Part shown: positions 9,694 through 30,706 of the stretch, piece after piece
Position numbering within the stretch: the first letter of the stretch is position 1
Layout: each line of letters starts with the position of its first letter
The notes under the pieces: generated by a model
Database searches by the model: none
What the model was told of the DNA's origin: nothing
The model's input: the letters and a program-made list of their open reading frames with translations, nothing else
DNA from: Phycisphaera sp.
GTDB lineage: Bacteria > Planctomycetota > Phycisphaerae > Phycisphaerales > Phycisphaeraceae
DNA: 40,124 nucleotides
Reading direction: 5' to 3'
Assembly: GCA_028285385.1 (NCBI GenBank)
Contig: JANQPR010000124.1
Location: 1 to 40,124 of the forward strand
Made by a program: the position numbers and the translations under genes

Positions 9694-9729
9694 GGTGGGT
9701 CAAAAAAAGTGCGTGGCGGCGGGAGGGGC

Positions 9730-11085: not shown

Positions 11086-11126
11086 CGTGGTCGGTGGAGC
11101 AAGAACGGGGAGCGGCCGCGTCGCGG

Positions 11127-12221: not shown

Positions 12222-12970
12222 CAGTCGAACTCAAAACTCACGATGTTGTCCTCGGCGGCTTCCGCCAGCTCGCGGTCCTCGTCCGACAGCGTCGTGCCGG
12301 CTTTCAACTCGGCCAGCAGCTTGGCGCTGCCCCACACCCCGTCCGGTCCGGCGGAGGCGAAGAACGGCGTCGGGTGAACCGGCAGGAAGTCGTCTTCCTC
12401 GAAGCTGTCCTCGTGGCTGACCCGTTTGGCGTAACGCATCTTGGCGTCCCACGGGTCCAGCAGCGTCCACAACTCCAAGTCGAGATAGGCCGTCGTCTGG
12501 CCACGGTTCACCGCCGTCTGGAAGTCCGGCGGGTTCTGGTCGTCGCTGTCGTGCCCGTCGTTGTCGGCGTCCCACGACAAGCCCTGGCGTCCTACGCCCG
12601 CGCGCAGCATCGACTCCGCCGTGCCGCCGAGCTGCTGGATGTTCACCAGGACCAGCCCGATGGTGGTGTCGTCTTCGTCATCGTCGGAGACCACGAGCCC
12701 GTCGATCCGGTCGACGCCGGTCGTCCGGGTGTGGTCGGGGACGTTGCCGGTCTGGAGCTTGTACTCGTCCAGCGCGCCGGAGAGCGCGTTGAGCACGGCC
12801 TTGGTCTTGCCGACCTCCGCCTGAGCCAACATGCGGATCGCGACCGGCGTGATGATCCCGACCAGCAGCGCGATGATCGAGATCGTCACCAGCACCTCGA
12901 TCAGCGTGAAGCCGGTCGGCCGTGCGGGCGCTCCTCGTGTCGAGCCGGGATGTCGGCGTGTTGCGTTCAT
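12221..12970 (-). CDS. GspG-like pseudopilin of set B
   Basis: The protein has 249 residues from the ATG at 12970. Its leader is RPTG|FTLIEVLVTISIIALLVGI, with glycine at -1 and glutamate at +5. The helix continues as RMLAQAEVGKTKAVLNALSGALDEYKLQTG, the pattern of GspG major pseudopilins, in which a short helix precedes the length-determining strand. The C-terminal part (PWDAKMRYAKR, GPDGVWGS) also resembles the GspG core with extra residues. A GTG at 13039 would extend the frame 23 residues upstream, but those codons lie in the heptamer repeat and encode VSGQWSVVSGQ, so I reject that start. It follows gspF of set B across an 87-base spacer that holds the repeat. Confidence 0.85.
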   Translation of the reverse strand: MNATRRHPGSTRGAPARPTGFTLIEVLVTISIIALLVGIITPVAIRMLAQAEVGKTKAVLNALSGALDEYKLQTGNVPDHTRTTGVDRIDGLVVSDDDEDDTTIGLVLVNIQQLGGTAESMLRAGVGRQGLSWDADNDGHDSDDQNPPDFQTAVNRGQTTAYLDLELWTLLDPWDAKMRYAKRVSHEDSFEEDDFLPVHPTPFFASAGPDGVWGSAKLLAELKAGTTLSDEDRELAEAAEDNIVSFEFD

Positions 12971-13002
12971 GTTGAACTCGCGTAACGGCGTTTCACACTC
13001 GC

Positions 13003-13054
13003 ACTGACCACTGACCACTGACCACTGACCACTGACCACTGACCACTGACCACT
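13003..13054. repeat. Heptanucleotide tandem repeat, 7 full copies
   Basis: The unit ACTGACC is repeated seven times without a mismatch from 13003 to 13051 and is followed by a further ACT. It fills most of the spacer between the gspF stop and the start of the next pseudopilin gene. Being seven bases long, the unit changes frame with each copy. There are no spacers between copies, so this is a short tandem repeat and not a CRISPR array. Confidence 0.95.
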
Positions 13055-13057
13055 CGC

Positions 13058-14365: not shown

Positions 14366-14372
14366 GGCGGAA

Positions 14373-14378
14373 CTCCTT
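14373..14378 (-). promoter_or_regulatory. Ribosome binding site of set B gspF
   Basis: On the minus strand AAGGAG lies seven bases before the ATG at 14365. It decides the start of gspF, because the same frame is open for more than 150 further codons upstream. Confidence 0.75.
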
Positions 14379-14508
14379 GCTACCCGGGACCAACGGCAAT
14401 CCACCTCGAGTCTTCGAAACGCGTGTCCTTCGCATCCCGTCCCCCCGGAAGCGCCTCGTTCTCGCCGACGGCCTCGCCGGCTTGCTGTCCACCGACCCTG
14501 TCCGGGGG

Positions 14509-16260: not shown

Positions 16261-16630
16261 GAGGGGTCATGCGTGGGGTACGGGGTGGATCAGGCTCCGT
16301 CACACGATTCGTTTTCCCGGTGTCCGATTTAAACACTTTTTATTCCGTGAACGAAGGAAGTAACAGCCGCGACGGTCACGGAGAATCAAACAGTGCAGCA
16401 AGCAGGCGGTGGCGCTACGGCCGAGTGCGGGGCGTACAAGCCTTTCGCCAGTACGTAACACGACAGTAACGAGGTTCGTCGGGATTTACAAGGGAAAACG
16501 CGGACGAAGATAGATATGACAGTCGGAATGGTGATCGATTGATCGTCGATCATCGACCTGGAGCGACGCTCGAGAGCGGCAAACCGAGTCGCAGGACTGA
16601 GATTGACGGAGTCGTGACTTCGGCCGTGGA
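16261..16630. other. Intergenic region upstream of set B gspE
   Basis: This 370-base stretch holds no convincing gene and is clearly richer in A and T than its surroundings around 16315-16360 and 16480-16560. It separates the 3' end of the receiver gene from the start of gspE and is the obvious place for a set B promoter, but I see no confident -35/-10 pair. A perfect inverted repeat, TGATCG-T-CGATCA, lies at 16540-16552. It could be an operator or part of a terminator for the receiver gene. Confidence 0.4.
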
Positions 16631-17029
16631 TCAGGTCCGGGTCGTCGCGGAAGCCAGCAGCTCCTGGGCCTTGGCGATCAGGTGTCGGGCGCTGAACGGC
16701 TTCGATTCCATGTGCTGGATGTTGGTCCGTGCGAGCTCTTCATCCGATACGGCGTGGCCCCGGGCGGTCAGCATGATCACCGGGACGTCCGCGGTTTCGG
16801 GGGTGTCCCGCAGCGCGATCGCGAACTGCAGCCCGTCCATCACGGGCATGTTGAAATCCGAGATCACCAACGCCGGGCGGACCCGCTGGGCCAGTTCGAG
16901 CGCGTCCTCGCCGTTGTTGGTCGGGTGGACGTCGTACCCCGCCTCCTCGAGCTTGACCTTGAGGATGTAGACGATGTGGGTGTCGTCGTCGGCGATCACG
17001 ACCGGGATGGGGGTGCCTGGATCGGGCAT
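16631..17029 (-). CDS. CheY-like single-domain response regulator
   Basis: The 132-residue protein is a stand-alone receiver domain with no output domain. The phosphoacceptor is D58 in VISDFNMPVMDG, the acidic pocket is D14/D15 in IADDDTH, and the switch residues are T88 (MLTAR) and K110 (MESKPFS). It probably relays phosphoryl groups by protein-protein contact. It lies between sets A and B, 59 bases after the PilX-like gene that ends set A. Set A also begins with a histidine kinase, so the two may act together on pilus or secretion assembly; that pairing is inferred. The ATG at 17029 is the natural start. Confidence 0.93.
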   Translation of the reverse strand: MPDPGTPIPVVIADDDTHIVYILKVKLEEAGYDVHPTNNGEDALELAQRVRPALVISDFNMPVMDGLQFAIALRDTPETADVPVIMLTARGHAVSDEELARTNIQHMESKPFSARHLIAKAQELLASATTRT

Positions 17030-17049
17030 CTAAATGACCATCGGACAAA

Positions 17050-17072
17050 GCCCGGCGGCGTTTCACCGCCCA
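17050..17072 (-). terminator. Possible weak terminator after set A
   Basis: On the minus strand GGCGG and CCGCC flank a seven-base loop, followed by GGGCTTTG. It lies directly after the PilX-like stop. The T run is short, so this may instead be an mRNA-stabilising hairpin. Confidence 0.3.
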
Positions 17073-17088
17073 GCGGGGATCCGAGGCT

Positions 17089-18054
17089 TCACGGGTCCAG
17101 CTGCCGCCGATAACTCCCGCGGACCACCATGAACGGGCTGTCGTTCAGGACTTCGCGGACGGACAGGTCGTCGAAATGGATGGTCTGGTTCCCGGAGACG
17201 GTGACGCCGTAGACGTAGGTCAGGTCCGGGGTGAACGAGAAATCCGGCGTGAGGTCGGCGGTGACCTTGGTCCACGTCGTGCCCGCCGGGGTGGCCTCGT
17301 CGACGTAACGGATGCTGAAACCTTGGGAGGTGTAAAGGCCGATTTTCACGTCTTCGGGCGTGTTGGGCAGGCGCATCCAGACCGTACAGCGGTAGGTCTT
17401 GTCGGTCTCGATGTCGCCGTTGGGCAGGTCTTGCTTCCAAGCGTCCAGTTGGGTGAACCGGTTTTCGAAGGCCAGGTAGATGTTGCCGCCGTGGGGGCTG
17501 TCCGAGTAGCCGTTGATGTTTCCGGCCAGCGCGGTTCTGCCATAGCCCGCCGAGCCGGCCTCCATGTCGCCGTTGGTCACCAACTCCGGGCCGAGCACTT
17601 CCAACGCCTCGACTTCGATGCTGACCAACCGCACCGCCTCGCCGCGCGTGGCGCGGGCGGTCAGGCGGAACGGCTCCTCGTCGTCGTCGTCGAGGGCCGT
17701 GTCGTTCAGGTCCTCGAGCTTGAACGTGAACCCGCCGTCGCCGAGCGCTTCCCAACCGGTCCACTGCTCGTGGGTGTAGGTGTCGCGCCAGTTCGGGTCG
17801 TTGACGAGGCGTTCGAGCGCGATCTGCAGGGCGGCGTCGGCGAGCACCTGGGCCTCGGCGGCGTGGGCCTCGTCGAGCTGGCCCCGCTGCTGGATCCGCG
17901 TCGCGGCGACGGCCGACATCCCGATGATCATCACGAGCCCCGACACCGCCAGCACCAGCAGGTACACCGACCCGCGCCGGCGGTGGTCCCGCTGACGACG
18001 GCTCGGCGACCGCTGCACCATCGACTCCGTTGCTCGGGGGTGGGTGGGGGTCAC
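17089..18054 (-). CDS. PilX-like minor pilin with carbohydrate-binding-like domain
   Basis: The 321-residue protein starts with a basic leader and RRRGSVYLLVLAVSGLVMIIGMSAVAA, a PilX/GspK-type N-terminus without glutamate at +5. AAEAQVLADAALQIALERL follows, as in PilX proteins. After about residue 150 there is a separate beta-rich module beginning ELVTNGDMEAG and containing HGGNIYLAF and TYRCTVWMRLP. This resembles the CBM4/9-like carbohydrate-binding fold, in which the N-G-D/S-F/M-E start is common. The GTG at 18054 overlaps the upstream stop as GTGA, which supports coupled translation; an ATG eleven codons later would also work. I infer a minor pilin displaying a ligand-binding module. The CBM assignment is by motif only. 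Confidence 0.75.
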   Translation of the reverse strand: MTPTHPRATESMVQRSPSRRQRDHRRRGSVYLLVLAVSGLVMIIGMSAVAATRIQQRGQLDEAHAAEAQVLADAALQIALERLVNDPNWRDTYTHEQWTGWEALGDGGFTFKLEDLNDTALDDDDEEPFRLTARATRGEAVRLVSIEVEALEVLGPELVTNGDMEAGSAGYGRTALAGNINGYSDSPHGGNIYLAFENRFTQLDAWKQDLPNGDIETDKTYRCTVWMRLPNTPEDVKIGLYTSQGFSIRYVDEATPAGTTWTKVTADLTPDFSFTPDLTYVYGVTVSGNQTIHFDDLSVREVLNDSPFMVVRGSYRRQLDP

Positions 18055-18599
18055 CAGGTGGGCTCAACGAGTTCGTCGGGGTCGGGCCAGCTCGCGGCGC
18101 GGACGCCGGTGAGGGTGGCGAGGGTCTTGCCACCGACGGAGACGGAGACGGTGATGACTTTCACCGGTGTGCGGGTGGCGGAGGTCGTTTTTGGGCTGTC
18201 TAACTCGACCCAGGCGACGCTGGCGGTACGAGTGAAGCGGCTCAGGCCGGGCCGCGTATTACCCGCGGCGTCAACGGGGGGGTTGGCAGACCACCCGTCG
18301 TAGTCGTCGAAGTCGTTCCAGGTGTTTCGTGGGCCCCCAGCTTCGCTGCTGGTTGGGCCGAGTGCGTTCGGCGTGATCGAGCTCTCGTACGGCAGCAGCA
18401 GCGCCTCGGCGAGCAGCTCCTCGCAGAGCTGCATCGCGGTCTGGCGGTCGGCGAAGGCGGCCTGCGTGACCTGCGAGCTGCCGACGAGGTTGAGCGCGAC
18501 GAGGTAGACCCCGCCGACGAGGACGACGGCGATCGTGACCTCGACGAGCGAGAAGCCGCGGCGGCGGGCCGGACGGGTTGGGCGGGCGCGTCGGGCCAT
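18051..18599 (-). CDS. GspI/PilV-like pseudopilin of set A
   Basis: The 182-residue protein has the leader RRG|FSLVEVTIAVVLVGGVYL, with glycine at -1 and glutamate at +5. The helix continues with QTAMQLCEELLAEALLLP, the pattern of GspI/PilV pseudopilins, where the A-x-x-L-A-E-x-L segment is typical. The C-terminal part is a small beta-rich domain ending SWPDPDELVEPTW. Its ATG at 18599 overlaps the stop of the preceding gene as TGATG, and its own stop overlaps the next start as GTGA, so it sits firmly inside the set A operon. Confidence 0.85.
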   Translation of the reverse strand: MARRARPTRPARRRGFSLVEVTIAVVLVGGVYLVALNLVGSSQVTQAAFADRQTAMQLCEELLAEALLLPYESSITPNALGPTSSEAGGPRNTWNDFDDYDGWSANPPVDAAGNTRPGLSRFTRTASVAWVELDSPKTTSATRTPVKVITVSVSVGGKTLATLTGVRAASWPDPDELVEPTW

Positions 18600-20431
18600 C
18601 AGTTAAAGAGGCTCCCCCACCAGCTGCTACTGCTGCTGGTGCTCGAGCTGGTGCTGCTGCTGGAAGTGCCCGAGCTGTCGGCGGACGACGTGCCGGCGGT
18701 GTTGCCCAGGCCGAGGCCGCCGTCGTCGTCGTCGAGGTCGATGCTCGCGCCGGCGGTGGCGCCGTTGATGGTGGCGTCGGCCTCGACTGCGGTGGTGCCG
18801 GCGACGGCGACGGCGACGTGGTCGCACTGCACGCCGGCGTTGGCGGAGTCGGCGAAGAACCCCAGGCTGGGCGAGCCGTTGTCGGCGGTCGTGCCGTAGA
18901 CGAACGCGCCCACGCGGAGCTGGTTGATCTCGACGCCGGCTCGGTCGTTGTCGGGGTCGAGCAGAAGCCGGAGGTGGACCCAGGCGTCGGTGTCGTCGGT
19001 GGTGGCGGTAAACCAGGTGGTGAGTGTGCCGCCGTCGTCGAGGCCCTGCACGGTGAGCACCTGCTCTCCGCCGTCGAGTTCGAGCTCGGCGGTGATGACG
19101 GTCTGCAGCCCGTCGCCGCGGTCGCACCGCCAGCGGACGCCGGCCCCGGCGCCGTCGTCGGTGATGTCGCGCAGCCGGACGTTAAGCACGGTCGGCGTGT
19201 CGAAGGCGGTGTCGTCGGGCTCGAGCTGGTGTCCGGCCTGGATGGCCCAGTGCCCGTTCATCATGCGGCTGTCGTTGAACGAGCCGGACCAGTCGGCGAC
19301 GCCGTTGGCGTCGAGGTCGAGCCGCGTCGGGTCGCTGCCGAAGTCGGTGACCCAGAGGTCGTCCACGGCGACGGGCGCGTTGGGCAGGGCGACCATCGTG
19401 TCGAGGGTGCGCGACGGGTTGCGGGTCAGGGCCAGCGACAGGTCGACGCACTTGACGCGTTGCCGGGTGTAGGACCAGCCGTCGCCGGGCGCGGTGTAGA
19501 TGCCGTAGACGTAGTGCTTCAGTTCTTCGTCGTCGGCGTAGGCGGTCCACGCTGCGCCTTCGTCGCCACTTTCGTACATGTTGGTCGGGGCGCTGTTGCC
19601 TTTGTCGTACTCCCACTTCCCGGCGTCGCCGCCGCCGTAGTTGGCGAGGTTGATGAAGGCGTCTTCGCTCGCGTCGAACGTCGGCGAGCCGTCGAAGCTG
19701 AAGTCGTACCAGTCCCAAGCGGTGAGGTCGGATTCGGGACGGTCCATCGAATCGAAGACGGTGTTGCCGGGGGCGTCGCTGTCCCAGTCGCGGAGTTCGA
19801 CGGTGATCGTTGACCCGGAGCCGCCTTGCTTGTCTCCGTAGAACGTGGCGCGGGTGATGCGCCAGCCGGTGGCGTCGGCGGGGAGGTTGGGATCGACACG
19901 CGTGCCGAACCACGCGCTGCTCTTGAGCTTTTCGCTCCCAGTGCCGGTACCGCCGTCCTGGCTGGACAGCAGTTCTTCCGCCGACTCCACGGGCGTGCCG
20001 GGGAAGACGGCGCTGCGGTCGACGGCGGCGTAGCCGAGGGTGAGGGTTTCGACTTCCTTGATCACGATGACGGGGGCGCCGCCGTTGCGTTGGCGGGTGA
20101 GGGGGTCGGCGGCGCTGCCGGCCCAGGCCCAGCGGATGACTTCGGGGGCGCCGTCGCCGTCCTGGTCGGGCAGGACCGCGGTGACGGCGTTGGGGTCGCG
20201 CTCGGTGAGGTGGATCGCCTGCTGGAGGTCGTCGCGGAACTGCTGCATGACCTGCGCGGCGGAGACGATGGAGCCGGCGTCGGTGTCGTCGGTGGGCAGG
20301 GCCTTGGTCGCGAGCACGATGGCCGAGCTCATGGTGGCGACAAGCACGCCGATGACGACGAGGCTGATCACGACCTCGAGGAGGGTGAACGCGGCGGGGC
20401 GGCGGCGCTGTCGGCGGTGCGTGGGGGTCAT
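18599..20431 (-). CDS. GspJ/PilW-like pseudopilin with LamG-like domain and Ser-rich tail
   Basis: The 610-residue protein has the leader RRPAA|FTLLEVVISLVVIGVLVATM, with alanine at -1 and glutamate at +5. The early part (VMQQFRDDLQQAI, VIRWAW) fits GspJ/PilW. From about residue 370 to 560 the pattern DDLWVTDFGSD, DTPTVLNVRLRDI and WVHLRLLLDPDNDRAGVEI suggests a concanavalin/LamG-type jelly roll, which often binds glycans. The last 40 residues are almost only Ser, Thr and Asp and end in SSSSWWGSLFN, an unusual tail. It overlaps its neighbours at both ends: ATGA with the GspH-like gene and TGATG with the GspI-like gene. Pseudopilin identity is firm; the domain names are motif-level guesses. 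Confidence 0.78.
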   Translation of the reverse strand: MTPTHRRQRRRPAAFTLLEVVISLVVIGVLVATMSSAIVLATKALPTDDTDAGSIVSAAQVMQQFRDDLQQAIHLTERDPNAVTAVLPDQDGDGAPEVIRWAWAGSAADPLTRQRNGGAPVIVIKEVETLTLGYAAVDRSAVFPGTPVESAEELLSSQDGGTGTGSEKLKSSAWFGTRVDPNLPADATGWRITRATFYGDKQGGSGSTITVELRDWDSDAPGNTVFDSMDRPESDLTAWDWYDFSFDGSPTFDASEDAFINLANYGGGDAGKWEYDKGNSAPTNMYESGDEGAAWTAYADDEELKHYVYGIYTAPGDGWSYTRQRVKCVDLSLALTRNPSRTLDTMVALPNAPVAVDDLWVTDFGSDPTRLDLDANGVADWSGSFNDSRMMNGHWAIQAGHQLEPDDTAFDTPTVLNVRLRDITDDGAGAGVRWRCDRGDGLQTVITAELELDGGEQVLTVQGLDDGGTLTTWFTATTDDTDAWVHLRLLLDPDNDRAGVEINQLRVGAFVYGTTADNGSPSLGFFADSANAGVQCDHVAVAVAGTTAVEADATINGATAGASIDLDDDDGGLGLGNTAGTSSADSSGTSSSSTSSSTSSSSSWWGSLFN

Positions 20432-20907
20432 GGGAGCGCGGCCTCCCCGGTCGAAGGGTCGACCGTGATGGTGCGGGTGTTGTTGCCGGCGGCGAGGACG
20501 ATGGTGCCGCCCGAGATGGGCGTGCCGTACCCGGTGTAGGTGAGCGTGGGGTTGCCGGCGAAATCGGCGGAGACGAGGTCGGCGGTGTAGGGGGTGTCGG
20601 CGAAGTCGGTGAGGTAGTCGGCGTCGCGGTTGTCGTTGCCGGCGACGCCGGTGATGATCATCGTCTCGGCGGCGGGGTCGAAGGTGGCGGTGATGGCCTT
20701 GCTGCGGGTCTTGGCGCGGCTCTGGGCGAAGGCGAGGTCGGCGATGACGCGCTGGGCGGCGGCGTCGACGCGGTACCGGGCCTGGGCGTCGGCGTAACGG
20801 GGCACGGCGATGGCGGCGATGAGCCCGACGATGACCATGGTCAGCGCGAGCTCCACGAGGGAGAACGCGGCGCGGCGGCGGTCGGACTCGGGGAGCGCTG
20901 CGGGCAT
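20428..20907 (-). CDS. GspH-like pseudopilin of set A
   Basis: The 159-residue protein has the leader RRAA|FSLVELALTMVIVGLIAAI, with alanine at -1 and glutamate at +5. AAQRVIADLAFAQSRAKTRSKAITATFD follows, which is the characteristic GspH helix-to-strand transition. The length fits GspH. I choose the ATG at 20907 because it gives a normal leader of about 15 residues; the frame is open to 21159 but the added part is low-complexity shadow. Its stop overlaps the next start as ATGA. It follows gspG after 151 bases that contain no recognised gene. Confidence 0.88.
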   Translation of the reverse strand: MPAALPESDRRRAAFSLVELALTMVIVGLIAAIAVPRYADAQARYRVDAAAQRVIADLAFAQSRAKTRSKAITATFDPAAETMIITGVAGNDNRDADYLTDFADTPYTADLVSADFAGNPTLTYTGYGTPISGGTIVLAAGNNTRTITVDPSTGEAALP

Positions 20908-21058
20908 CACGCGGGGCGGGTCGGTGAGCGACGGGTGGCGGCGTGAAACGAAAACGGCGACTCGGCCGGGTAGGGCCGCGTCGCCGTGGGCCGAGCGTGG
21001 TGGCGCGGCCGGTGGGGCGGCGTGGCGGTCACGCACGCCGGGGCGTTGGAACGCCGGG

Positions 21059-21535
21059 TTACCAGGTGATGTAGTCGGTCTCGTTGGCCCAGATCTCGCC
21101 GGTCGTGGCCTTGTAGAGCCAGCCGTTGGTGGCGGTGCCGCTCTCGGCCGCGGGGGCACCGGCGGTCGTGTAGTCCTCGATGCCGGTGGCGCCGGCGTAG
21201 GTGCCGCCCTTGAGCGCGGGGATCTGGCGGAGGTACGGGCCGTACACGAAGGCGCCGGTCTTGGTCGCGCTGGTGCCGCCGGCGGCGTTGGTGTAGGTCG
21301 TGAGCTGGGCGACGAAGGTCCCGGCGGCCGGGTACGTGCCGTTGTGCTCGGCGGCGTACATCTCGATCGCGTTGCGCAGCACGGCCAGGTCGCCCCGGAC
21401 CGCGGATTCGGTGGCGCCGGCGGCCCCGCGACTGAACCGCGGGATCGCGATCGCCGCGAGCAGGCCGATGATCACCACGACGATGACCAGTTCGACCAGA
21501 CTGAAACCCGACGGACGGTTCTTGAAACGGTGCAT
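21059..21535 (-). CDS. gspG: Major pseudopilin GspG of set A
   Basis: The 158-residue protein is the probable main subunit of the set A pseudopilus. The leader is RPSG|FSLVELVIVVVIIGLLAAIAIPRF, with glycine at -1 and glutamate at +5. SAVRGDLAVLRNAIEMYAAEHNG follows, the typical GspG helix, and the C-terminal GWLYKATTGEIWAN matches the end of GspG-like proteins. The length is normal. GGAGG lies five bases before the ATG at 21535, the best ribosome binding site in set A and consistent with high expression of a major subunit. A 125-base gap separates it from the PilP-like gene upstream. Confidence 0.93.
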   Translation of the reverse strand: MHRFKNRPSGFSLVELVIVVVIIGLLAAIAIPRFSRGAAGATESAVRGDLAVLRNAIEMYAAEHNGTYPAAGTFVAQLTTYTNAAGGTSATKTGAFVYGPYLRQIPALKGGTYAGATGIEDYTTAGAPAAESGTATNGWLYKATTGEIWANETDYITW

Positions 21536-21540
21536 GCGTG

Positions 21541-21545
21541 CCTCC
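21541..21545 (-). promoter_or_regulatory. Ribosome binding site of gspG
   Basis: On the minus strand GGAGG stands five bases before the gspG ATG. It is stronger than those of most neighbours, which rely on overlapping stops and starts. Confidence 0.75.
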
Positions 21546-21599
21546 GACCCCCGAGGAGTGGGTGGTGTAATCGTTCGTGCTAGTGGATCGACCTAATTC

Positions 21600-21622
21600 A
21601 ACCCGGCCTTTACCGCCGGGAA
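21600..21622 (-). terminator. Hairpin between PilP-like gene and gspG
   Basis: On the minus strand CCCGGC and GCCGGG form a six-base-pair stem around a seven-base loop, followed by TTGAATT. It could be a partial terminator or an RNA-processing hairpin that sets gspG expression apart from the upstream genes. The T run is weak. Confidence 0.35.
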
Positions 21623-21660
21623 TCGTCCTTGGGCGGCCTTCCTGCGGGTTCGCGTCCCAG

Positions 21661-22203
21661 TTATCCGGACTTCAACGAGACCCGGAACCGCTGGCCGTGC
21701 CCGTCCCAGACCACGAATCGGTCGCCGATGTGTTCGAGCTTGACCCCTTCGACCGCGTCGCCGGCTTTCATCAGCTTCCCGGCCACGATGGCGAAGCGGG
21801 TGTCGCCCTTGGCGGTGACGGCGTCGAGCGGGTGCCGCTGGACGAACTCCCGCGGCTCAAAGGCCAGCGGGACGGCCGCCGAACCCTGCGCTGATTCCGA
21901 TAACCACAGGTTCGACGGCGCAAACGGGTCGGGCACGGCGGCGTCACTGGTGCGCGTCTCCTGGTCCGCGTCGTCCAGCCGCTGGGCGATCGATCGGCCG
22001 GTGAAGGCGGGCGTCGGGTCGGCGACCACCGCGGCGAGATCGGGCGTCGGACCGGCTTGGTCGCCCACGGCCGCCGAGACCCCGGCCGACGCGCTCTGTG
22101 GGCCCGTGAACTCGCCGCCCATGAGCAGGCGGTCGCCCACGACCGCGGCGGCGGCGAGACCGGCGACCGCGATCAGCACTTTGCGTTCCCTGGTCAGTTC
22201 CAT
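21661..22203 (-). CDS. PilP/GspC-like inner-membrane connector
   Basis: The 180-residue protein has one N-terminal membrane anchor (KVLIAVAGLAAAAVVGDRLL, about residues 8-27), a proline- and alanine-rich linker with the element VPDPFAPSN, and a small C-terminal beta domain. That domain reads FAIVAGKLMKAGDAVEGVKLEHIGDRF in overlapping pieces, followed by VVWDGHGQRFRVSL, which is the homology-region pattern of GspC and PilP. In those families the domain links the inner-membrane platform to the secretin. I place the start at the ATG at 22203, just before the anchor, rather than at the upstream GTG at 22287. It follows pilO after 117 bases. The call rests on domain layout and gene order. Confidence 0.7.
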   Translation of the reverse strand: MELTRERKVLIAVAGLAAAAVVGDRLLMGGEFTGPQSASAGVSAAVGDQAGPTPDLAAVVADPTPAFTGRSIAQRLDDADQETRTSDAAVPDPFAPSNLWLSESAQGSAAVPLAFEPREFVQRHPLDAVTAKGDTRFAIVAGKLMKAGDAVEGVKLEHIGDRFVVWDGHGQRFRVSLKSG

Positions 22204-22320
22204 GGTGCCCGAACCGACGGATATAACTGCGCGGCCGTCAAGCCGAGTTCCCAAGAACCCACAGGGTGGGGTTTGCCCAGGCGTCACACCCGGTACGCCG
22301 AGCGGTTCGGCGGCGGCCCG

Positions 22321-22899
22321 TTAGGACGCGGCCGGTGCTTCGTCCGCGACCAGGGTGAACCAGACGATGTTGTAGACCGCGTCGGGCCGGTTGGCGCGCT
22401 GGGCGCCGCGCGGCTGCGTGAGGTCCAGGCCAACGACGCTCATGTCGGTGAAGCGTTCGTGCACCGCCACCAGGAAGGTACGGTGCTGGTCGAATGAGCC
22501 GGCGGCTTCGAGCCGAAGGCCCTTGAGGTCGTAGTGCTCGGCCGGCTGCGACCCGCCGGGCTGGAGTTGCATGACGTCCAGGCCCGCCTGCCGCGCGAGG
22601 TCGATCAGCGCGGCGATGCGGCGGTTGAGGTGTTCCGGATCGCCCAACGTGACCGGGTGTTCGTTGAGCCTGCCGCGTAGTGTGGTCAGCTTCTGATTCA
22701 GTCGGTCGAGCTGCTCTTGGAGGATGTCCGCCTGTTCGGCCTTGCCGCGGGCTTGTTCGGCGAGCCGGACGTCAGCGCTACGACTGGCCTGCACCGGCGC
22801 GATCCCGGCGTAGTACACCGTCGCGGTCAACGCCGTCGCCGCCACGGCGCAGCCGGCCCAAACCTTCCAGACGTTGGCTCGCGGGTTCGCCGGGTTCAT
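22321..22899 (-). CDS. pilO: PilO-like inner-membrane alignment protein
   Basis: The 192-residue protein has one N-terminal membrane segment (WAGCAVAATALTATVYYAGI), a coiled-coil stretch (AEQADILQEQLDRLNQKLTTLRGRL) and a ferredoxin-like C-terminal domain, the layout of PilO/GspM. LIDLARQAGLDVMQLQPG and LVAVHERFTDMSVVGLDL match the usual PilO core. Partners would be the PilN half of the upstream fusion and the PilP-like protein. The ATG at 22899 overlaps the upstream stop as ATGA, so coupling is expected and the upstream in-frame extension can be ignored. Confidence 0.87.
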   Translation of the reverse strand: MNPANPRANVWKVWAGCAVAATALTATVYYAGIAPVQASRSADVRLAEQARGKAEQADILQEQLDRLNQKLTTLRGRLNEHPVTLGDPEHLNRRIAALIDLARQAGLDVMQLQPGGSQPAEHYDLKGLRLEAAGSFDQHRTFLVAVHERFTDMSVVGLDLTQPRGAQRANRPDAVYNIVWFTLVADEAPAAS

Positions 22900-24479
22900 G
22901 GCGCCGCCTCCTGCACCCCGTTGCCGATCTCGGCGCGGACGGTGAAACGGGTCATGGCGTTTGCGCCGCGCGCCGCGCGCTGCGAGTCGGCGATCTCGAC
23001 CCGCTCGAACAGGCCGAGCTGTTCCAGACTCAGCACGAACGCCGACACCTGCCACGGATCACGGGTCGTGCCCGACAGCTGGACGCGGGCGGCGGCGTCG
23101 ATGGTCGGCCCGGTCGTTTCGACCCGTACGCCGTCGAGCACGACGTCGCCGCCGGACGCGCGGGCCACGAGGTCCAGCAGCGTGCTCCAGTTCGGGCGTT
23201 CGGACAGGACCCGGCTGGCCTCGAGTTGGCGCGTGCCCTCGCGGAGGTCGCGCTGCGCGTCGGCGACGGCGACGGATAGTTTCTCGACCCGTGCCGTCTC
23301 GATCGCCATGCGGTCGCCCGCGGCCATCGTCTGACGTGGCGCGCTCAGCGACAGGTAGCCCACCGCCCCGAGCAGCAACAGGCCGGAGTACCCCGCCGCC
23401 ACCAGCACGCCGCCGCGCGATTGGCGTTGACCGGCCCGGCGGTCCAGCTCGGTCTGGGGCAGCAGGTTGATCCCGCCGTCCCGTTCGGCGAGCGCCAGAC
23501 CCGTGGCCACGGTGTAGGCGCGGTCCTGTGTCTCGCCGCCGGCGTCGGGACGCCGGGTCGAAGCCGTGGCCAGTGACAGCTCTTGCGCGACGGCTTCTTC
23601 GAGCCCGTCGATCGATGCGCCCTCGCCGATCACCGCGAGGCGTTCGATCACCTGCGGCGCATAGAGCCGGGCCGCGTAGTCCAGCGCCGGGTCGGCTTCC
23701 TGCGCGACCGCGCGGGCGAGGCGGGCAATGGCCGTGTCCCGCGTCGCGCGGTGTCGGTGTGTCGCGTCGTCGCCTTGGTGCAAGACGAACGCCGCAAGGT
23801 GGTGGTCTAGGCCCTGGTCGGCGAGGAAGGCGTGGGCGGCGCCCAGCCCCGCGTCGATCAGGGACCGCTGGTACACCACGACGCCCCGGCGAACCAGGAT
23901 GAGTTCCGACTCGGTGCGACCGATGTCCAGCACTGCGGTGAGGTGGTCGCCTGCGGAGGCACGATCCGTGTCGACGCACCTCGCCGCCGCCGAAGACCGG
24001 CTGTCTAATGCCTCGAGCCTCAGACCCGCTCGGTTGAACCATAACAGCCACCGCTCCGCGTCGTCGTGGCGGCAGCCGTTCACGACCACGGCCGCCTGAC
24101 GCGACTCGGCCGGCATGTCCGGCTCCCAAGCCGCGAGCTCGTACGTGCCCGGCTCCAGCCCGTTGCCCCGCTCGATCTCCAGCGCCGCGTTGAGCAACGC
24201 CTCGTGGTCGTCCGGCTTGACCTCGACCAGGCCGCGGATCAGTTCGGCGTTTGGCAGCGCGGCGGCCACGCGGTCTCCCTTGAACCGTCGGCGTTTCAAC
24301 ACCTCGGCCAGAAGCGTCACGTCCTCCGCGGCGAGCGGCGCAGACGCCTCCTCACGTGGGACCGTTACGGCGTCGCACAGCGCCCATCCGCTTCCGCGGT
24401 GCTGGTACTGGACCGCGCGCAGCGCGTCGGCCTCTAGCGACACGCCGATCGGGCTCAGCTTGTGGTTCGGCGTCAGCAT
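22896..24479 (-). CDS. Fused PilM-PilN protein
   Basis: This 527-residue protein joins two components that are normally separate. Residues 1 to about 330 are PilM-like, with an actin/FtsA fold: PIGVSLEADALRAVQY at the N-terminus, LDIGRTES at 184-191 as a phosphate-2 loop and VIGEGASIDGL at 283-293 as the adenosine loop. PilN begins at GGINLLP (INLLP at 337-341), the peptide that in separate PilN proteins docks into PilM. It is followed by a membrane helix at about 357-379, a coiled coil at about 385-425 and a PilO-like periplasmic domain. No stop or frameshift separates the halves. The ATG at 24479 overlaps the gspF stop as TGATG, and its stop overlaps pilO as ATGA. I infer an obligate 1:1 cytoplasm-to-periplasm link. 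Confidence 0.88.
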   Translation of the reverse strand: MLTPNHKLSPIGVSLEADALRAVQYQHRGSGWALCDAVTVPREEASAPLAAEDVTLLAEVLKRRRFKGDRVAAALPNAELIRGLVEVKPDDHEALLNAALEIERGNGLEPGTYELAAWEPDMPAESRQAAVVVNGCRHDDAERWLLWFNRAGLRLEALDSRSSAAARCVDTDRASAGDHLTAVLDIGRTESELILVRRGVVVYQRSLIDAGLGAAHAFLADQGLDHHLAAFVLHQGDDATHRHRATRDTAIARLARAVAQEADPALDYAARLYAPQVIERLAVIGEGASIDGLEEAVAQELSLATASTRRPDAGGETQDRAYTVATGLALAERDGGINLLPQTELDRRAGQRQSRGGVLVAAGYSGLLLLGAVGYLSLSAPRQTMAAGDRMAIETARVEKLSVAVADAQRDLREGTRQLEASRVLSERPNWSTLLDLVARASGGDVVLDGVRVETTGPTIDAAARVQLSGTTRDPWQVSAFVLSLEQLGLFERVEIADSQRAARGANAMTRFTVRAEIGNGVQEAAP

Positions 24480-25636
24480 CAGCCGCCGGCTCCTTCCCCC
24501 GCCATCGCGGTCAGGTCGAACAACGGCAGGAACAGACTCACCGCCAACAGCCCGACGAGCGCGCCGAGCACGATCAGGATCAACGGCTCGAGGATCTTGG
24601 TGAGCGAACGGACGATCACGTCGTTCTCCTCGTCCAAGAAGTCGGCGACCGTCGTCAGGGACGCGGCGATCCGCCCGCTGTTCTCGCCGCTGCGGAAAGC
24701 CTCGTAGACCGACGGTGCGATCAGGTCGGGGTCGTTGAACGCGTTGCTCACCGGCTCGCCCCGGCCGACGGCCGACTCGGCGTTGGTGATCAGCGTCGCG
24801 TAGTGGACGTTGCCGCAAGAGCCACGCACGAGCTCGAGGACGCTCAGCAGCGGGAGGTGGCTCTGCACCAGCGTGCCGATCAGACGAACCACCCGGGCCG
24901 TGATGAACGCGCGGGTCAGGTTCCCAATCACCGGCATCCGCAGGGCTAGCGTGTGCATCGCCCGTTGCCCGTTCGGCGTGCTGACCCACAGCCACGTGCC
25001 GACCCCGCCCGCCGCCAACAGGAACAGGATCACCCACCAGTACGACTTGAGGAACGCGCTGGCCGCGAGGGTCGCCTGCGTCGTCGGCGGGATCGGCACC
25101 GACAGCGACACGAACAGGTCGCCGAAGCGCGGCACCACCACCGTCAGGGTCAGGCACAAGACGATAAGGACGACGGAGAGCAGGATCGCCGGGTACAGCA
25201 GTGCGCCGACGACGCCGTTGCGCATCTGCAGGTCACGCTGCGTGAGCGTGACGATGCGGTCGAGCATCTCGGGCAGCTTGCCCGCGGTCTCGCCGGCCTC
25301 GAACAGCGACCGGGTCACGCGGTCGAAGAGGTGCGGGTGTTCGGCCATCGACTCGGCCAAGCCGCTGCCTTGTTCGACCTGCCTGCGGACGTCGGTGATC
25401 GCGGCCTGCCAGGTCTTGTCGGCGGTCTGACGTTCGAGGCTCTCGAGCGCGGCGACCACCGGCGTGCCCGAGCCGAGCAGCACGTGAAGCTGCCGCGTGA
25501 ACAGCAGGAGGTTTTTCTTGCGGTGCCAGCGTTGCGTGATCGGCAACGACGGGCCACGCTTGGCCTTGGTCGTCACGCGCTTGGCCGGCGCGGCGGTCGG
25601 TCGGGCGGTAGAGATGCGGGTCGGCGCGGAGGCCAT
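24479..25636 (-). CDS. gspF: Inner-membrane platform protein GspF/PilC of set A
   Basis: The 385-residue protein has two T2SSF domains and three membrane segments (around LLYPAILLSVVLIVLCLTLTVVV, SYWWVILFLLAAGGVGTWLW and LILIVLGALVGLLAVSLFLPLF). Conserved GspF elements are FTRQLHVLLGSGTPV, LFEAGETAGKLPEML and AFRSGENSGRIAASL. A basic, proline-rich N-terminal extension of about 40 residues replaces the usual first residues. It differs clearly from the set B copy and lacks the Gly/Lys linker. The ATG at 25636 overlaps the gspE stop as TGATG and is preceded by AGGAGG. The open frame further upstream is shadow. Confidence 0.94.
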   Translation of the reverse strand: MASAPTRISTARPTAAPAKRVTTKAKRGPSLPITQRWHRKKNLLLFTRQLHVLLGSGTPVVAALESLERQTADKTWQAAITDVRRQVEQGSGLAESMAEHPHLFDRVTRSLFEAGETAGKLPEMLDRIVTLTQRDLQMRNGVVGALLYPAILLSVVLIVLCLTLTVVVPRFGDLFVSLSVPIPPTTQATLAASAFLKSYWWVILFLLAAGGVGTWLWVSTPNGQRAMHTLALRMPVIGNLTRAFITARVVRLIGTLVQSHLPLLSVLELVRGSCGNVHYATLITNAESAVGRGEPVSNAFNDPDLIAPSVYEAFRSGENSGRIAASLTTVADFLDEENDVIVRSLTKILEPLILIVLGALVGLLAVSLFLPLFDLTAMAGEGAGG

Positions 25637-27390
25637 CAGGCAGACCTCCTCAGCTCGACCGTTGGTTCTTCGGTGACGTCGTCGTTGTGCGTCACGCGTA
25701 GGATCTCTTCCAGGCTGCACTTGCCGTTCAACGCAATCGACACGCCTTCCTGCCGCAGCGTCCGGCCGCCTTGCTTCTGCCACGCGGTGCGCAACTCGTG
25801 TGAAGCCGCGGCGCGGTGGATGTCTCGGCGGAGCTCCGAGGTGACCTGCATCACCTCGTAGATCCCGATGCGCCCGAGCATCCCGCTGTTGTGACACTTG
25901 GTGCAACCGGTGCCGCGGACAAACGGCCGGCCAACCTTGTCGGGGATGTCGGCGTCGCGCAGGGCGTCTTCCGAGGGGTAGTACTTGGCCATGCAGTGCG
26001 GGCAGACGTTGCGGGCGAGGCGCTGAGCGACGACGCCGTTGAGCGCGCTGCTGAGCAGGTAGGGCTCGATGCCCATGTCGAGGAGGCGTGCGACCGCGCC
26101 CGGCGCGTCGTTGGTGTGCAGCGTGGCGAGGACGAGGTGGCCCGTGAGCGCGGCCTGAACGGCGACGCGCGCGGTCTCCTCGTCGCGGATCTCGCCGATC
26201 ATGATGACGTCGGGGTCTTGCCGAAGGATGCTGCGCAGCGCCTTGGCGAAGCCGAGGCCGATGCTGTCGTTGACCTGGATCTGGTTGATGAGGTCGAGCT
26301 GGTATTCGACGGGGTCTTCGACGGTGACCATGTTGCGTTCGGGGCTGCGCAGCAGGTCGAGGCCGGAGTACAGCGTGGTCGTCTTGCCGGAGCCCGTGGG
26401 CCCGGTGACGAGGACGAGCCCGTGCGGCTCGTGCAGCATCTCCTTGAAGGTATCGAGCGCGTCTTCGCGGAAGCCCAAGTCCTCCATGCGGACCCGGAGG
26501 TTGCGCTTGTCGAGAACGCGGACCACGAGCTTCTCACCCAGCAGCGTCGGCAGGCTGGAGACACGCAGGTCGATGTCCCGGCCGTCGGCGAAGAGGCGCA
26601 CACGGCCTTCCTGCGGCAGGCGTTTCTCGGCGATGTCCATCTTCCCGATGACCTTGACGCGGGAGACGATCGCGGCGTGCATGCCGGCCGGGGGCTGCAT
26701 CAGGTCGCGCAGGACGCCGTCGATGCGGTACCGGATCCGCGTGGACTTCTTGTCGGGCTCGATGTGCACGTCGCTGGCGCCGTCCTTGATCGCGGTGAGC
26801 AGCGCGACGTTGACGAGGTTTACGATCGGGCTGCCCTCGACCATGCGGTCCAGGCTGGCGTCGGACTCGTTGTCGACCTCTTCGGTCTCGACGACCTCGA
26901 CGTCGGTCTCGGCGAGCGAGGTGAGGAACGCGTCGACGTCGACGTCCTCGGCGGCGTAGCGCTTGATGTAGTCCTGGATCTCGGAGTCGAGCGCGAGGAC
27001 GGGGCGGACCTTGCAGCCCGTGAGTTGACGCAGCCGGTCGATGGTCGGCAGCGACTGCGGCTCGGCCATGGCGACGGTGAGCGTGTCGTGCACCTTGAAC
27101 AGCGGCAGGACGCGCAGCCGGGCGGCTTCGTCGGGCCCCACAAGCTTGAGCGTGGTCGGGTCGGCCAGGCCATGGCGGAGTTGCACGCCGCGGACGCCGA
27201 GCGACTCGGCGAGGGTGTGCACGAGTTGGTCGGCGGTGATCAGGCCGGTCTCGACCATGATCTCCCCGAGCAGCTTGCCCGAAGATTTCTGCTTGCTGAG
27301 CGCGTCCTGCAACTGCTCCTGCGTGACGGACTGGTCGCGCAGCAGCAGGTCGCCGATCCGGGCCTTGGGGGAGAACGACCGCCCGCTCAC
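25636..27390 (-). CDS. gspE: Assembly ATPase GspE/PilB of set A
   Basis: The 584-residue hexameric ATPase drives the set A apparatus. The N-terminal MshEN-like region covers about residues 10-145 (LGEIMVETGLITADQL and following). The motor has Walker A GPTGSGKT at 330-337 with lysine 336, VEDPVEY in the aspartate box, Walker B DVIMIGE with glutamate 400, and the histidine box TGHLVLATLHTNDAPG. The zinc motif cysteines are C463, C466, C496 and C499. The start is a GTG at 27390 that overlaps the STAS stop as GTGA; the protein begins naturally with KARIGDLLLRDQSVTQ. It is only distantly similar to the set B ATPase outside the motor motifs, so the two are not a recent duplication. Confidence 0.96.
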   Translation of the reverse strand: MSGRSFSPKARIGDLLLRDQSVTQEQLQDALSKQKSSGKLLGEIMVETGLITADQLVHTLAESLGVRGVQLRHGLADPTTLKLVGPDEAARLRVLPLFKVHDTLTVAMAEPQSLPTIDRLRQLTGCKVRPVLALDSEIQDYIKRYAAEDVDVDAFLTSLAETDVEVVETEEVDNESDASLDRMVEGSPIVNLVNVALLTAIKDGASDVHIEPDKKSTRIRYRIDGVLRDLMQPPAGMHAAIVSRVKVIGKMDIAEKRLPQEGRVRLFADGRDIDLRVSSLPTLLGEKLVVRVLDKRNLRVRMEDLGFREDALDTFKEMLHEPHGLVLVTGPTGSGKTTTLYSGLDLLRSPERNMVTVEDPVEYQLDLINQIQVNDSIGLGFAKALRSILRQDPDVIMIGEIRDEETARVAVQAALTGHLVLATLHTNDAPGAVARLLDMGIEPYLLSSALNGVVAQRLARNVCPHCMAKYYPSEDALRDADIPDKVGRPFVRGTGCTKCHNSGMLGRIGIYEVMQVTSELRRDIHRAAASHELRTAWQKQGGRTLRQEGVSIALNGKCSLEEILRVTHNDDVTEEPTVELRRSA

Positions 27391-27722
27391 AGGAAGCTCC
27401 TCACGGCCGAGTTGACGTCCTGGTAGTGGTCGAACCGGTCGTGCAGCTCGGTCAGTTCGAGCACGGTGCGGAGCGTCTCGTTGGCGCCGGCGATGCGCAG
27501 CGTCTGGCCGGTTTCCTCGAGCGCCGCTGCGGCATCGGCGAGGACCTCGAGCCCACGGCTGTCGACGAACGGCACGTTGGTGACGTCGACGAGCAACCGC
27601 CCGAGGCTGGTGCGGACGGTCTCTTCCAACTGCTTGCCGAACTGGTCCGCGTCGTCCTGGATGATCGCGCCGCGCGGCTCGATCACGGTGACGGCCCCCT
27701 TGCGTTGAGTCTCGATCTGCAT
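27387..27722 (-). CDS. STAS-domain anti-sigma-factor-antagonist-like protein
   Basis: The 111-residue protein is a single STAS domain. The signature VDSRGLEVLADAA carries the serine that partner-switching kinases phosphorylate in SpoIIAA/RsbV proteins, and LLVDVTNVPFVDS is the typical strand before it. In this setting it could bind a kinase or another switch partner and modulate the pilus apparatus rather than a sigma factor; that is inference. The ATG at 27722 is followed downstream by a four-base overlap with gspE (GTGA), and it lies 16 bases after the histidine kinase stop, so it belongs to the operon. No anti-sigma kinase of the RsbW type is visible in the window. Confidence 0.9.
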   Translation of the reverse strand: MQIETQRKGAVTVIEPRGAIIQDDADQFGKQLEETVRTSLGRLLVDVTNVPFVDSRGLEVLADAAAALEETGQTLRIAGANETLRTVLELTELHDRFDHYQDVNSAVRSFL

Positions 27723-27738
27723 GATCGCCTCACGGGGG

Positions 27739-29301
27739 TTATGCGGCCTTGGCCTGGGCTTTCGTCTCGGTGGTGCCCTTGTCGCCGGTCTGTTTGGCCG
27801 GGTCCTTGACGGGGAGCCGGAGCGTGAACGTGCTGCCCTCGTTGAGCGTGGACTCGGCGGTGATGTCGCCGCCGTGCAGCCGGATCACCTCGCGCGCCAG
27901 CGACAGCCCCAGCCCGGTGCCCGTGACGCCGGCAATTCGCTTGTCGTTGGCCCGGTAGAACTTGTCGAAGATCCTGGGAAGGTCGTCGCCGCTGATCCCG
28001 ATGCCGGTGTCGGAGACGCGGGCCTCGATGAAGCCGTCGGTTTCCTCGACCTCCACCCGGACCCGTTTGCCCCGCGGCGTGTATTTCACGGCGTTGCTGA
28101 GCAGGTTGTGCATCGCCACCGAGACCTTCTCGCGGTCACCCTGCACGACGGACAGCTTCGGCGGCAGGTCGAAGGTCAACTCGACCGCCTGCGCTTTGGC
28201 TTGCGGGCGGTAGTCTTGTTCGAGCCGCTTGACCAGGTCGTCGAACCGCACGTCGTCGCGGCGGATGTTCAGCGAACCGGCTTCGATCTCGGAAACCGAC
28301 AGCACCTCGTCGACCAGCCGGGCCAGCCGCAGAACCTCGCCGTTGATCACGTTGAGGCATTCGGAACGCTCGGCGACGGCGGCCTCGTCGAGTTCGATCG
28401 CCCGCTCGACGTAAAGTCCGATGTTGGTCAGCGGCGTGCGGAGCTCGTGCGTTGCCTGCGCCACGAACAGGTTCCGGGCCTGGTCGGCGGTGCGTTGCTG
28501 GGTCACGTCCTCAAGGACCACCAATGCCTGGCGAGTAGCCCCTTCGCCCAGGCCGCGGACCGTGACGCGGACGATGGTCTCGACGCCTTCCTCGGGCTCG
28601 AGCCGGAGTTCGGTCTGACCGCCGCGGTTTTGGGGGCTGCTCAGCGTCTCGGCGATGAGTTCGTTCAACGCTTCGTCTTCCAGGACCTTGTCAACCGGTG
28701 CGTTGGCCAGGCGTTCCTTGCTACGCATCAGGATCCGGCAGGCGGCGCCGTTGGCCGCGCTCACGTGCCGGTTGGGCGTGACGAGCAGGACGCCCTGCGG
28801 CAGCAGGTCGAGTGCCTTGCCGTCGAAGCCGTGGTGCCCTTCGGCTTGCTGCAGCTTGTCGTTCGCTTCCGTTTGGATGGCGGCCCGCTGCGCGTCGCGC
28901 CAGGACCGGATGAGCTCGTTCCACCACTGCGCGACCGGGTCGTCGACGGCGGTGATGGTCAGAACCTCAACGTGCCGGCTGCCGGGCGTCCAGGCGCAAA
29001 CGGCGCGTTGGATCTCTTCAGACACCGGCAGCCGCTTCCAAACAAACAGACCAATGAATCCGAGCGCAAACAGCGCCGCCACACACGCCACAGCGAACGC
29101 GGAGCGCACGGCCGGCGACAGTACATCGGCGGACGCCAACGAGAACACGGCGCACGCGGCGACGACAACGCCCGCCACCGCGCAGGCGGCGAGCAACGGC
29201 ACGCGTTGGGAGCGCGGCGCGGGGGAGGTAGCCCCGGTGTCGTTGGTTCCTGCCATGCGTCCCATAACCTCCGGGCTTCCGTGGAATCCCTGAGTGTCCA
29301 T
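27739..29301 (-). CDS. Membrane-bound sensor histidine kinase
   Basis: The 520-residue protein begins set A. It has two membrane helices at about 35-52 and 64-89, a PAS-like region at about 160-265 (LLPQGVLLVTPNRHVSAANGAA) and a HisKA dimerisation helix with phosphorylated H285 in ATHELRTPLTN. The ATP-binding domain has N399/N403 in HNLLSNAVKYTP, the G1 box DTGIGI at 431-436 and the G2 box GTGLGL at 461-466. A lysine- and threonine-rich tail follows. Possible starts are ATGs at 29301, 29265 and 29256; I keep the longest, but the later ones are equally plausible. The only receiver in the window is the CheY-like protein at 16631, at the other end of set A. Confidence 0.94.
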   Translation of the reverse strand: MDTQGFHGSPEVMGRMAGTNDTGATSPAPRSQRVPLLAACAVAGVVVAACAVFSLASADVLSPAVRSAFAVACVAALFALGFIGLFVWKRLPVSEEIQRAVCAWTPGSRHVEVLTITAVDDPVAQWWNELIRSWRDAQRAAIQTEANDKLQQAEGHHGFDGKALDLLPQGVLLVTPNRHVSAANGAACRILMRSKERLANAPVDKVLEDEALNELIAETLSSPQNRGGQTELRLEPEEGVETIVRVTVRGLGEGATRQALVVLEDVTQQRTADQARNLFVAQATHELRTPLTNIGLYVERAIELDEAAVAERSECLNVINGEVLRLARLVDEVLSVSEIEAGSLNIRRDDVRFDDLVKRLEQDYRPQAKAQAVELTFDLPPKLSVVQGDREKVSVAMHNLLSNAVKYTPRGKRVRVEVEETDGFIEARVSDTGIGISGDDLPRIFDKFYRANDKRIAGVTGTGLGLSLAREVIRLHGGDITAESTLNEGSTFTLRLPVKDPAKQTGDKGTTETKAQAKAA

Positions 29302-29818
29302 CGGCCGGTGGGCGGGCGACTTGAATCCGGCGCTGTCGAACGGCGGTGGATTCTGCGCATCGGGTCGAAGGACGAGTTGGTGCCGGCGCGGTTATTGGAG
29401 CCGCTCGAGGCGCTTGAGGCCCGAGGCAAACCGCGGTCGCCCGGTCACGCGTGATCTTGGCTTTCCTTGCGAGTCGGCCCGCTCAAGCAGTCGCACAGGG
29501 AGTCGCGGTGGCTGTGATTTTCCCTAAGCCGCGGGTTTTTGTTCGAGAGTTATGCAATTTTCGCTTCTCCTACCCACAGCTTCTGATATTGTTGAGTCAG
29601 TCGAGCCCTGCACTTCTCAACGTTTGCTTTGCCGAAAAACTGAACGCTCTGGGCCCAACGCTCTGCAGTAACGCGCCGGTACCCGTGAACGACGCCGTCA
29701 TTCGCGCCGCCTCGTGGGTTGAGCGACCGCTTGGATCCATCCGGCGTGTCCACGTGCGCTGAACCTTCGGCGTCCGGTAACGACATCAACGAGGCCGCCG
29801 CATCCAGGAGCCCTTCGC
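29302..29818. other. Intergenic region with AT-rich centre
   Basis: The region separates the divergent histidine kinase and H-X9-DG prepilin genes and should hold both promoters. The stretch 29515-29650 is distinctly poorer in G and C than the surroundings. I see no confident promoter pair. Two short coding-like pieces occur. One is a plus-strand frame 29281-29454 that overlaps the kinase start. The other is a minus-strand frame ending at 29550, whose last 45 residues (for example RRVTAERWAQSVQFFGKAN) look protein-like but match nothing I know. Confidence 0.35.
29806..29810 (+). promoter_or_regulatory. Ribosome binding site of the 295-residue prepilin
   Basis: AGGAG stands eight bases before the ATG at 29819 and supports that start. 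Confidence 0.65.
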
Positions 29819-30706
29819 ATGAATCGACGTTCAGCCCCCGTTGCCGGCTTCACGCTGATCGAACTGCTTGTCGTTATCTCGATCATTGCGTTGCTCATCG
29901 GCATCCTGCTGCCGGCCCTGGGCGCGGCGCGGCGGTCGGCACGCACGATCCAGTGCCAGAGCAACGTGCGTCAGTTGTCGATCGCGTTCCAGGGGTACTC
30001 CACCGACACCAACGCCTTCTACCCCGGCGACGGCCGGCTGACCTACAGCGACCGCGACAACAACCTGGGCAACTGGGTGCCGGGCTTCTCGATGCAGCAG
30101 GCGGTCAGCCCGGTGGACCTGACCAAGGGCTCGATCTACCCCTACGCGGAGAGCCTGGAGATCTTCCGCTGCCCGGAGGACGAGTTCACCGAGCCCGAAC
30201 CGCCGAATCCCGGCAGCAGCGGGCTGAGCTACACCGTCAGCAACCACATCTACAACACGTCGGGCCGGATGCCCGGTTTGGCGGTCAGCGGGTCGATCTC
30301 GATCGGCGCGATCAAGATCAAGAAGACGATCACCGTGTCGAACACCGACCTGTACCGCAGCCCTTCGTCGCTGATCATCCTCGTCGACGAGGGTGGCCCG
30401 AACAACGACCCCGACTTCGGCGGCACGTTCTCGAACCGCGGGGTGAACGACGGGTTCTTCGAGAACATGGGCGTGCCGGACGTTGCCAACGCCAACCCCG
30501 GGGGCCCCACATCGGACAAGTCCAAGTGGTACCACAGCGACGGCGCGGCCTTCGGCTTCGCCGACGGGCACGGCGAGGTGCGCAAGCGGACCGACCTCGA
30601 GGTCGTGGGCTGGATCCAAGGCAACGTGCTCCCGTCCGGCCGAACGTTTTCCTACGGCGGGTTGTGGGACCCTCTGGCCGAGGCGCCGCTGAACCTGTTC
30701 GAGTAG
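29819..30706 (+). CDS. H-X9-DG type prepilin
   Basis: The 295-residue protein has the leader PVAG|FTLIELLVVISIIALLIGI, with glycine at -1 and glutamate at +5, and a hydrophobic helix at about residues 11-31. The planctomycete motif is HSDGAAFGFADG, histidine plus nine residues plus DG, in the C-terminal half. CQSNVRQLSIAFQGYS after the helix is also typical of the family. It is followed 63 bases later by a PEP-CTERM exported protein on the same strand and may share its mRNA, since I see no terminator between them. Its specific role is unknown; H-X9-DG proteins are usually scattered singly through planctomycete genomes. Confidence 0.92.
   Translation: MNRRSAPVAGFTLIELLVVISIIALLIGILLPALGAARRSARTIQCQSNVRQLSIAFQGYSTDTNAFYPGDGRLTYSDRDNNLGNWVPGFSMQQAVSPVDLTKGSIYPYAESLEIFRCPEDEFTEPEPPNPGSSGLSYTVSNHIYNTSGRMPGLAVSGSISIGAIKIKKTITVSNTDLYRSPSSLIILVDEGGPNNDPDFGGTFSNRGVNDGFFENMGVPDVANANPGGPTSDKSKWYHSDGAAFGFADGHGEVRKRTDLEVVGWIQGNVLPSGRTFSYGGLWDPLAEAPLNLFE

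Follow-up and report, generated by a model that had tools for sequence, protein, structure and literature searches.

The fused gene and its operon

The window, a stretch of 40,124 nucleotides from Phycisphaera sp. (assembly GCA_028285385.1, contig JANQPR010000124.1), carries on its minus strand a single open reading frame (ORF) of 527 amino acid residues at positions 22896–24479, which starts with an ATG at 24479 and ends with a stop codon (22896–22898) that overlaps the downstream ATG as ATGA. Its product, which unites in one chain two proteins that ordinarily come together at a pilus or secretion-machine base, is composed of an actin-like PilM domain (residues 1–335; 23475–24479, minus strand), the INLLP peptide (residues 337–341; 23457–23471, minus strand), a single predicted membrane helix (residues ~358–376; 23352–23408, minus strand), supported by a hydropathy peak and by a helix at residues 342–378 of the AlphaFold2 model, and a periplasmic coiled coil (residues 384–426) followed by a ferredoxin-like PilN domain (residues 432–519; together 22923–23330, minus strand). 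The boundary between the PilM and PilN parts is at approximately residue 335, and the INLLP peptide that follows it, the motif by which PilN binds the PilM groove, is homologous to the starts of split PilN proteins and to the stretch of PilN in the 5eou structure.

Pfam profiles recognise PilM_2 (PF11104) at residues 58–306 (E 3.5e-7, 29.9 bits against a cut-off of 27) and PilN (PF05137) at residues 435–517 (E 1e-6, 29.1 bits against a cut-off of 22.8). The NCBIfam profile for pilM (TIGR01175) matches residues 11–306 with E 1.2e-15, its 57.3 bits being under the cut-off of 133, and the protein thus qualifies as PilM by curated profile cut-off for Pfam only; for PilN, profile match, NLLP peptide and single membrane helix are all present. 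The preliminary description, which read PilM and PilN in one polypeptide with INLLP kept, is confirmed by the two Pfam domains above their cut-offs in one 527-residue frame, and its coordinates are exact, on the minus strand.

The phosphate-1 motif of the PilM domain is degenerate (GVSLEAD in place of GLDLGxx), with serine and glutamate occupying the aspartate and glycine positions of an intact D-x-G motif, which is no requirement of the PilM profiles. This suggests that ATP binding by the domain may be weak or lost. Split relatives show such degeneration in 30 of 77 cases and, since the comparison with the fused proteins (four of five) gives a Fisher p of 0.15 with relatedness uncorrected, we claim no link between fusion and loss of the motif. 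A Thermus PilM mutated in ATP binding kept its ability to stimulate the ATPase (PMC6325625).

The genes around the fusion lie on the same strand in the order (5' to 3') histidine kinase, STAS-like, GspE/PilB, GspF/PilC, fusion, PilO-like, T2SSB-like, GspG-like, H, J, I and K. Upstream of the fusion are a GspE/PilB assembly ATPase with an N-terminal MshEN domain (25636–27390; T2SSE 5.7e-138, MshEN 1.7e-16) and a GspF/PilC platform protein (24479–25636; T2SSF 3.2e-45). Downstream are a PilO/GspM-like protein (22321–22899), assigned by its conserved position and synteny and by a PF04350 match below cut-off (E 6.8e-4), a T2SSB-like periplasmic protein in the PilP/GspC position (21661–22287; PF16537 E 2.7e-5, below cut-off) and a GspG-like major pseudopilin (21059–21535; N_methyl, and TIGR01710 2.1e-13, below cut-off). 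The minor pseudopilins comprise GspH (20428–21159, internal start; N_methyl, with the GspH Pfam profile above cut-off), a J-like protein in which the N-terminal methylation motif alone is recognised (18599–20431), an I-like protein with a weak GspI match (18051–18599) and a K-like protein with a weak GspK match (17089–18054). The same gene order is found in a congener in which the gene is also fused (G242) and in the nearest other genus, in which it is split (G295) (L148, L149).

Several further features of this region were observed. The J-position pseudopilin is unusually long (610 residues), and L148 and L149 encode a comparably long protein; the K-position pseudopilin shows weak similarity to a carbohydrate-binding domain (PF02018, E 2.4e-5, slightly under the cut-off). 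The STAS-like protein (family assigned by eye) and the PAS histidine kinase upstream of the operon (27387–29301, minus strand) keep their place in G242 and G295. Right next to this cluster lies another type IV filament cluster (7408–16260, minus strand), which encodes GspE with MshEN, GspF and several pilin-like proteins.

No sigma-70-like promoter was detected in 16500–30000, where terminators are not in excess. The window holds neither a secretin (GspD) nor a retraction ATPase (PilT); elsewhere in the genome, whose contigs are fragmented, there are five secretin domains, four PilT-class ATPases and several GspE paralogues, together with two further pilM–pilN pairs, both separate (C137, C217). 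The machine encoded by the operon looks more like a type II secretion system than a retractile pilus, an assignment that is not firm because the T2SSB and GspG matches fall short of their cut-offs and the window contains no secretin.

Formation of the junction

The orthologue in the congener G242, from a separate assembly, is also one ORF (533 residues, 42% identity) in a syntenic operon, with PilM_2 and PilN matches just below their cut-offs. The same protein as that of G242 is encoded in L066 (Phycisphaerae bacterium Co_bin.173). As the congeneric orthologue is one stop-free ORF in the same operon, a sequencing error is excluded; the preliminary description had allowed for a hidden stop near residue 330, and none interrupts the 533 residues of G242. 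The assembly of the window is fragmented (264 contigs), which would leave room for two genes having been joined artificially, but the fused, stop-free frame of the congener at 42% identity and the disappearance of the PilN start codon and ribosome-binding site from the window leave that reading a negligible chance.

In the closest other relative (G295; 44% identity), which belongs to another genus, pilM and pilN are separate genes that overlap; GSGVNLIP is preceded there by a GAGGAGG ribosome-binding site and an ATG, which overlap the pilM end. At the corresponding junction of the window, before GINLLP, there is no ATG and no clear ribosome-binding site. Since this closest split relative has overlapping pilM and pilN genes in the same gene order, the fusion appears to have formed at the gene boundary. 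Free PilN could still be produced from an in-frame GTG 13 codons upstream of I337, the fusion then being one of two products; we regard this as improbable, given that no good ribosome-binding site lies at the right distance and no ATG is left at the former PilN start.

Predicted structure and possible docking of the INLLP peptide

AlphaFold2 predicted, from a modest input alignment of 52 rows, an actin-like domain, a pair of membrane/coiled-coil helices and a ferredoxin-like domain, with a mean pLDDT of 89.7. The best structural matches of the PilM domain are 3jc8_Ma, 2ych_A and 5eou_B (Z 27–28, VIA). The possibility, foreseen in the preliminary description, that the N-terminal part is not PilM is contradicted by this fold match (Z ~27–28) and by the PilM_2 match above cut-off. 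The top Foldseek match is 5eou, an engineered PilM:PilN1-12 chimera. GspL structures are absent among the 50 VIA matches listed, which is not evidence for a different fold. A phmmer search of the PDB sequences with the window protein alone gave no match; the alignment profile did match.

The covalent order of the window protein is the same as in the Pseudomonas chimera, in which the PilN N-terminus follows PilM and leads into the peptide (PilM, SSGMAR, INLLP). The chimera differs in that it was built in the laboratory, contains just 12 residues of PilN and has a linker of 10 residues, against 6 between GLAL and INLLP in the window protein. The 10-residue blocks over INLLP have pLDDT values of 85 and 94 in the fusion, compared with 68 and 78 when the PilN half is modelled alone; this comparison is only a weak hint of docking in cis, because the blocks are out of identical register (331–350 versus 335–354) and the alignments differ. 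When aligned to 5eou_B by VIA, the last part of the matched region (342 to 366) is shifted from the sequence register by approximately three residues. The INLLP peptide may thus be held by the PilM domain of its own chain, a weak hint that comes from confidence values and an aligned range.

Alternatively, in the same fusion, INLLP would enter the groove of the PilM domain in an adjacent subunit, and the chains would be joined into a ring by domain swapping. The shorter linker and the PilM/PilN ring assemblies that have been modelled (PMC8389850) speak for such an arrangement, which we consider unlikely though not remote. Against it stands the high confidence given to the peptide in the monomer model. 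The preliminary description had left to structure prediction whether the peptide reaches the groove in cis or only in a neighbour, and this was answered in part: AlphaFold2 confidence agrees weakly with cis, and a single-chain prediction is blind to neighbouring chains. Of the five fused Phycisphaerae proteins identified in this analysis, four retain a recognisable motif (NL[LV]P or DLLP), which suggests that the contact with the groove is kept and now takes place within one chain.

Distribution and number of origins

We collected 80 named Phycisphaerae loci by searching genome contigs with a PilC alignment (a single-protein query over the same contigs gave no matches). PilM and PilN are split in 75, fused in 2 and cut in 3 of these loci. 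In keeping with the statement of the preliminary description that PilM binds PilN in trans in most bacteria, the two proteins are separate in most relatives, including 75 of the 77 scorable Phycisphaerae loci.

In a careful tree of 33 loci, with PilM and PilN joined, the fused proteins of the window (G000) and of G242 adjoin the split pair of G295 (95/93), and the fused G302 adjoins the split G329 (99/95). A single clade of the four fused proteins is rejected in this tree (p-AU 1.5e-29), a value to be read with the caution that G332 forms a long branch of odd composition and that the trait itself defined the tested group. Four changes are required by a quick tree of 82 rows, which adds L108 (Planctomycetales bacterium CSMAG_1105), whose fused ORF was read by HMM and whose NLIP motif has degenerated to NFIS. 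One label in the collection is probably wrong, or its bin is: L127, recorded as Leptolyngbya sp. PLA1 (a cyanobacterium), clusters closely with the Phycisphaerales locus L113.

The fused proteins found here have more than one origin, with at least two to three changes in one family, although a minimum count of changes does not show whether they were gains or losses; around the window, a single fusion that was later split again in G295 is also conceivable. We lean, with some reserve, towards at least three independent PilM–PilN fusions within a single planctomycete order, all at this gene boundary and in lineages whose unfused sister genomes share the operon.

In the wider Planctomycetota, we identified ten fused ORFs by direct reading, and 25 of 40 ORFs with PilN in a long open frame also match PilM_2 (E up to 0.01), which is not a frequency because the sample was chosen for long frames. 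The fused ORFs common in other Planctomycetota, and the large group made up by deep fused PilMs, could be taken to mean that PilM and PilN were fused in the ancestor of Phycisphaerae and that the many split pairs arose by later splits. This we find rather improbable: 75 of the 77 scorable Phycisphaerae loci are split, the fused ones are scattered tips, the changes needed would far exceed three to four, and in the PilM tree the deep fused proteins stand apart from the Phycisphaerae ones.

Several Planctomycetota families (L162–L173, L191–L194 and similar) were also seen to have shorter fused ORFs of ~420–460 residues with a PilN match; these carry a motif such as CNLSLIK, not NLLP, and are possibly GspL-like.

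Relation to GspL and to other PilM/PilN systems

GspL/PulL/EpsL has been described as a natural PilM–PilN fusion (PMC10191384, PMC6325625) and, in Campylobacterota type IV pilus (T4P) clusters, pilM and pilN are fused in most (PMC11870540). The fused architecture is therefore not new, and the idea that a fusion is unusual does not survive these precedents. We found no report of a PilM–PilN fusion in Planctomycetes among the open-licence papers searched. The Campylobacterota genes are likewise joined into one, but belong to another phylum and to a pilMNOPQ cluster of T4P. The separate PilM and PilN of Thermus (2ych), Pseudomonas (5eox) and Myxococcus (3jc8) have in common with the window protein the PilM fold (Z ~24–28) and the NLLP peptide, and differ in being two proteins that bind in trans.

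GspL/PulL/EpsL/XpsL and the window protein share a cytoplasmic actin-like domain, one membrane helix and a periplasmic ferredoxin-like domain in one chain, and in both cases the gene adjoins a GspM/PilO-like gene. This identical domain order, and the neighbouring GspE, GspF, GspG and GspH-like genes, would fit descent of a genuine GspL from the classical type II secretion systems, without a new fusion of PilM and PilN. Nevertheless, the window protein has no match to T2SSL/GspL_C (PF05134, PF12693) at E up to 1, T2SSL (PF05134) has no match anywhere in its genome, and no similarity to E. coli K-12 GspL, the one GspL compared, was detectable by BLAST or profile. It also keeps the canonical INLLP, which E. 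coli GspL does not have, and its nearest relatives in the tree are split pairs in the same operon, which makes inheritance as GspL very improbable. Judged by its sequence, the window protein is PilM/PilN, not GspL; as its sequence is that of PilM plus PilN and the GspL profiles do not recognise it, we do not class it as GspL, even if it probably works like one.

Proposed origin and role

We consider it probable that the window protein arose by a lineage-specific fusion of an adjacent pilM–pilN pair and acts as a functional equivalent of GspL in a type II secretion-like pseudopilus machine. The pair would have fused at the gene boundary through loss of the PilN start, within an operon of such a machine with the putative order E-F-MN-O-B-G-H-J-I-K. 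By analogy with GspL, the protein most likely holds the GspE/PilB ATPase to the membrane platform: the PilM domain would recruit the ATPase in the cytoplasm and tie it to the platform, INLLP may sit in the PilM groove of its own chain, as the model hints, and the PilN part would span the membrane and pair with the PilO-like protein.

Thermus PilM requires bound PilN to stimulate the assembly ATPase, and EpsL/XpsL act similarly on their own ATPase (PMC6325625); by this analogy, the fused protein would stay permanently in the PilN-bound state, which is how we would understand the loss of a regulated binding step suggested in the preliminary description. Fixed stoichiometry, which the preliminary description had expected from a covalent fusion, is not a necessary consequence, since separate PilM and PilN have already been modelled as one PilM–PilN ring around PilB (PMC8389850) and the fusion need not change their ratio.

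Implications

These observations support a view of PilM–PilN and GspL as interchangeable designs, and of the joining of pilM and pilN as an easy, repeatable step; what the present case adds is the recurrent origin beside split sister operons. Searches with single domains can miss fused genes when PilM and PilN are counted in planctomycetes. The related split and fused operons (G295 versus G000 and G242; G329 versus G302) lend themselves to a controlled test between two roles of the PilM–PilN contact, regulation and simple anchoring, and, if at least three independent fusions did take place, they would constitute a natural series for the effect of covalent joining on the platform.
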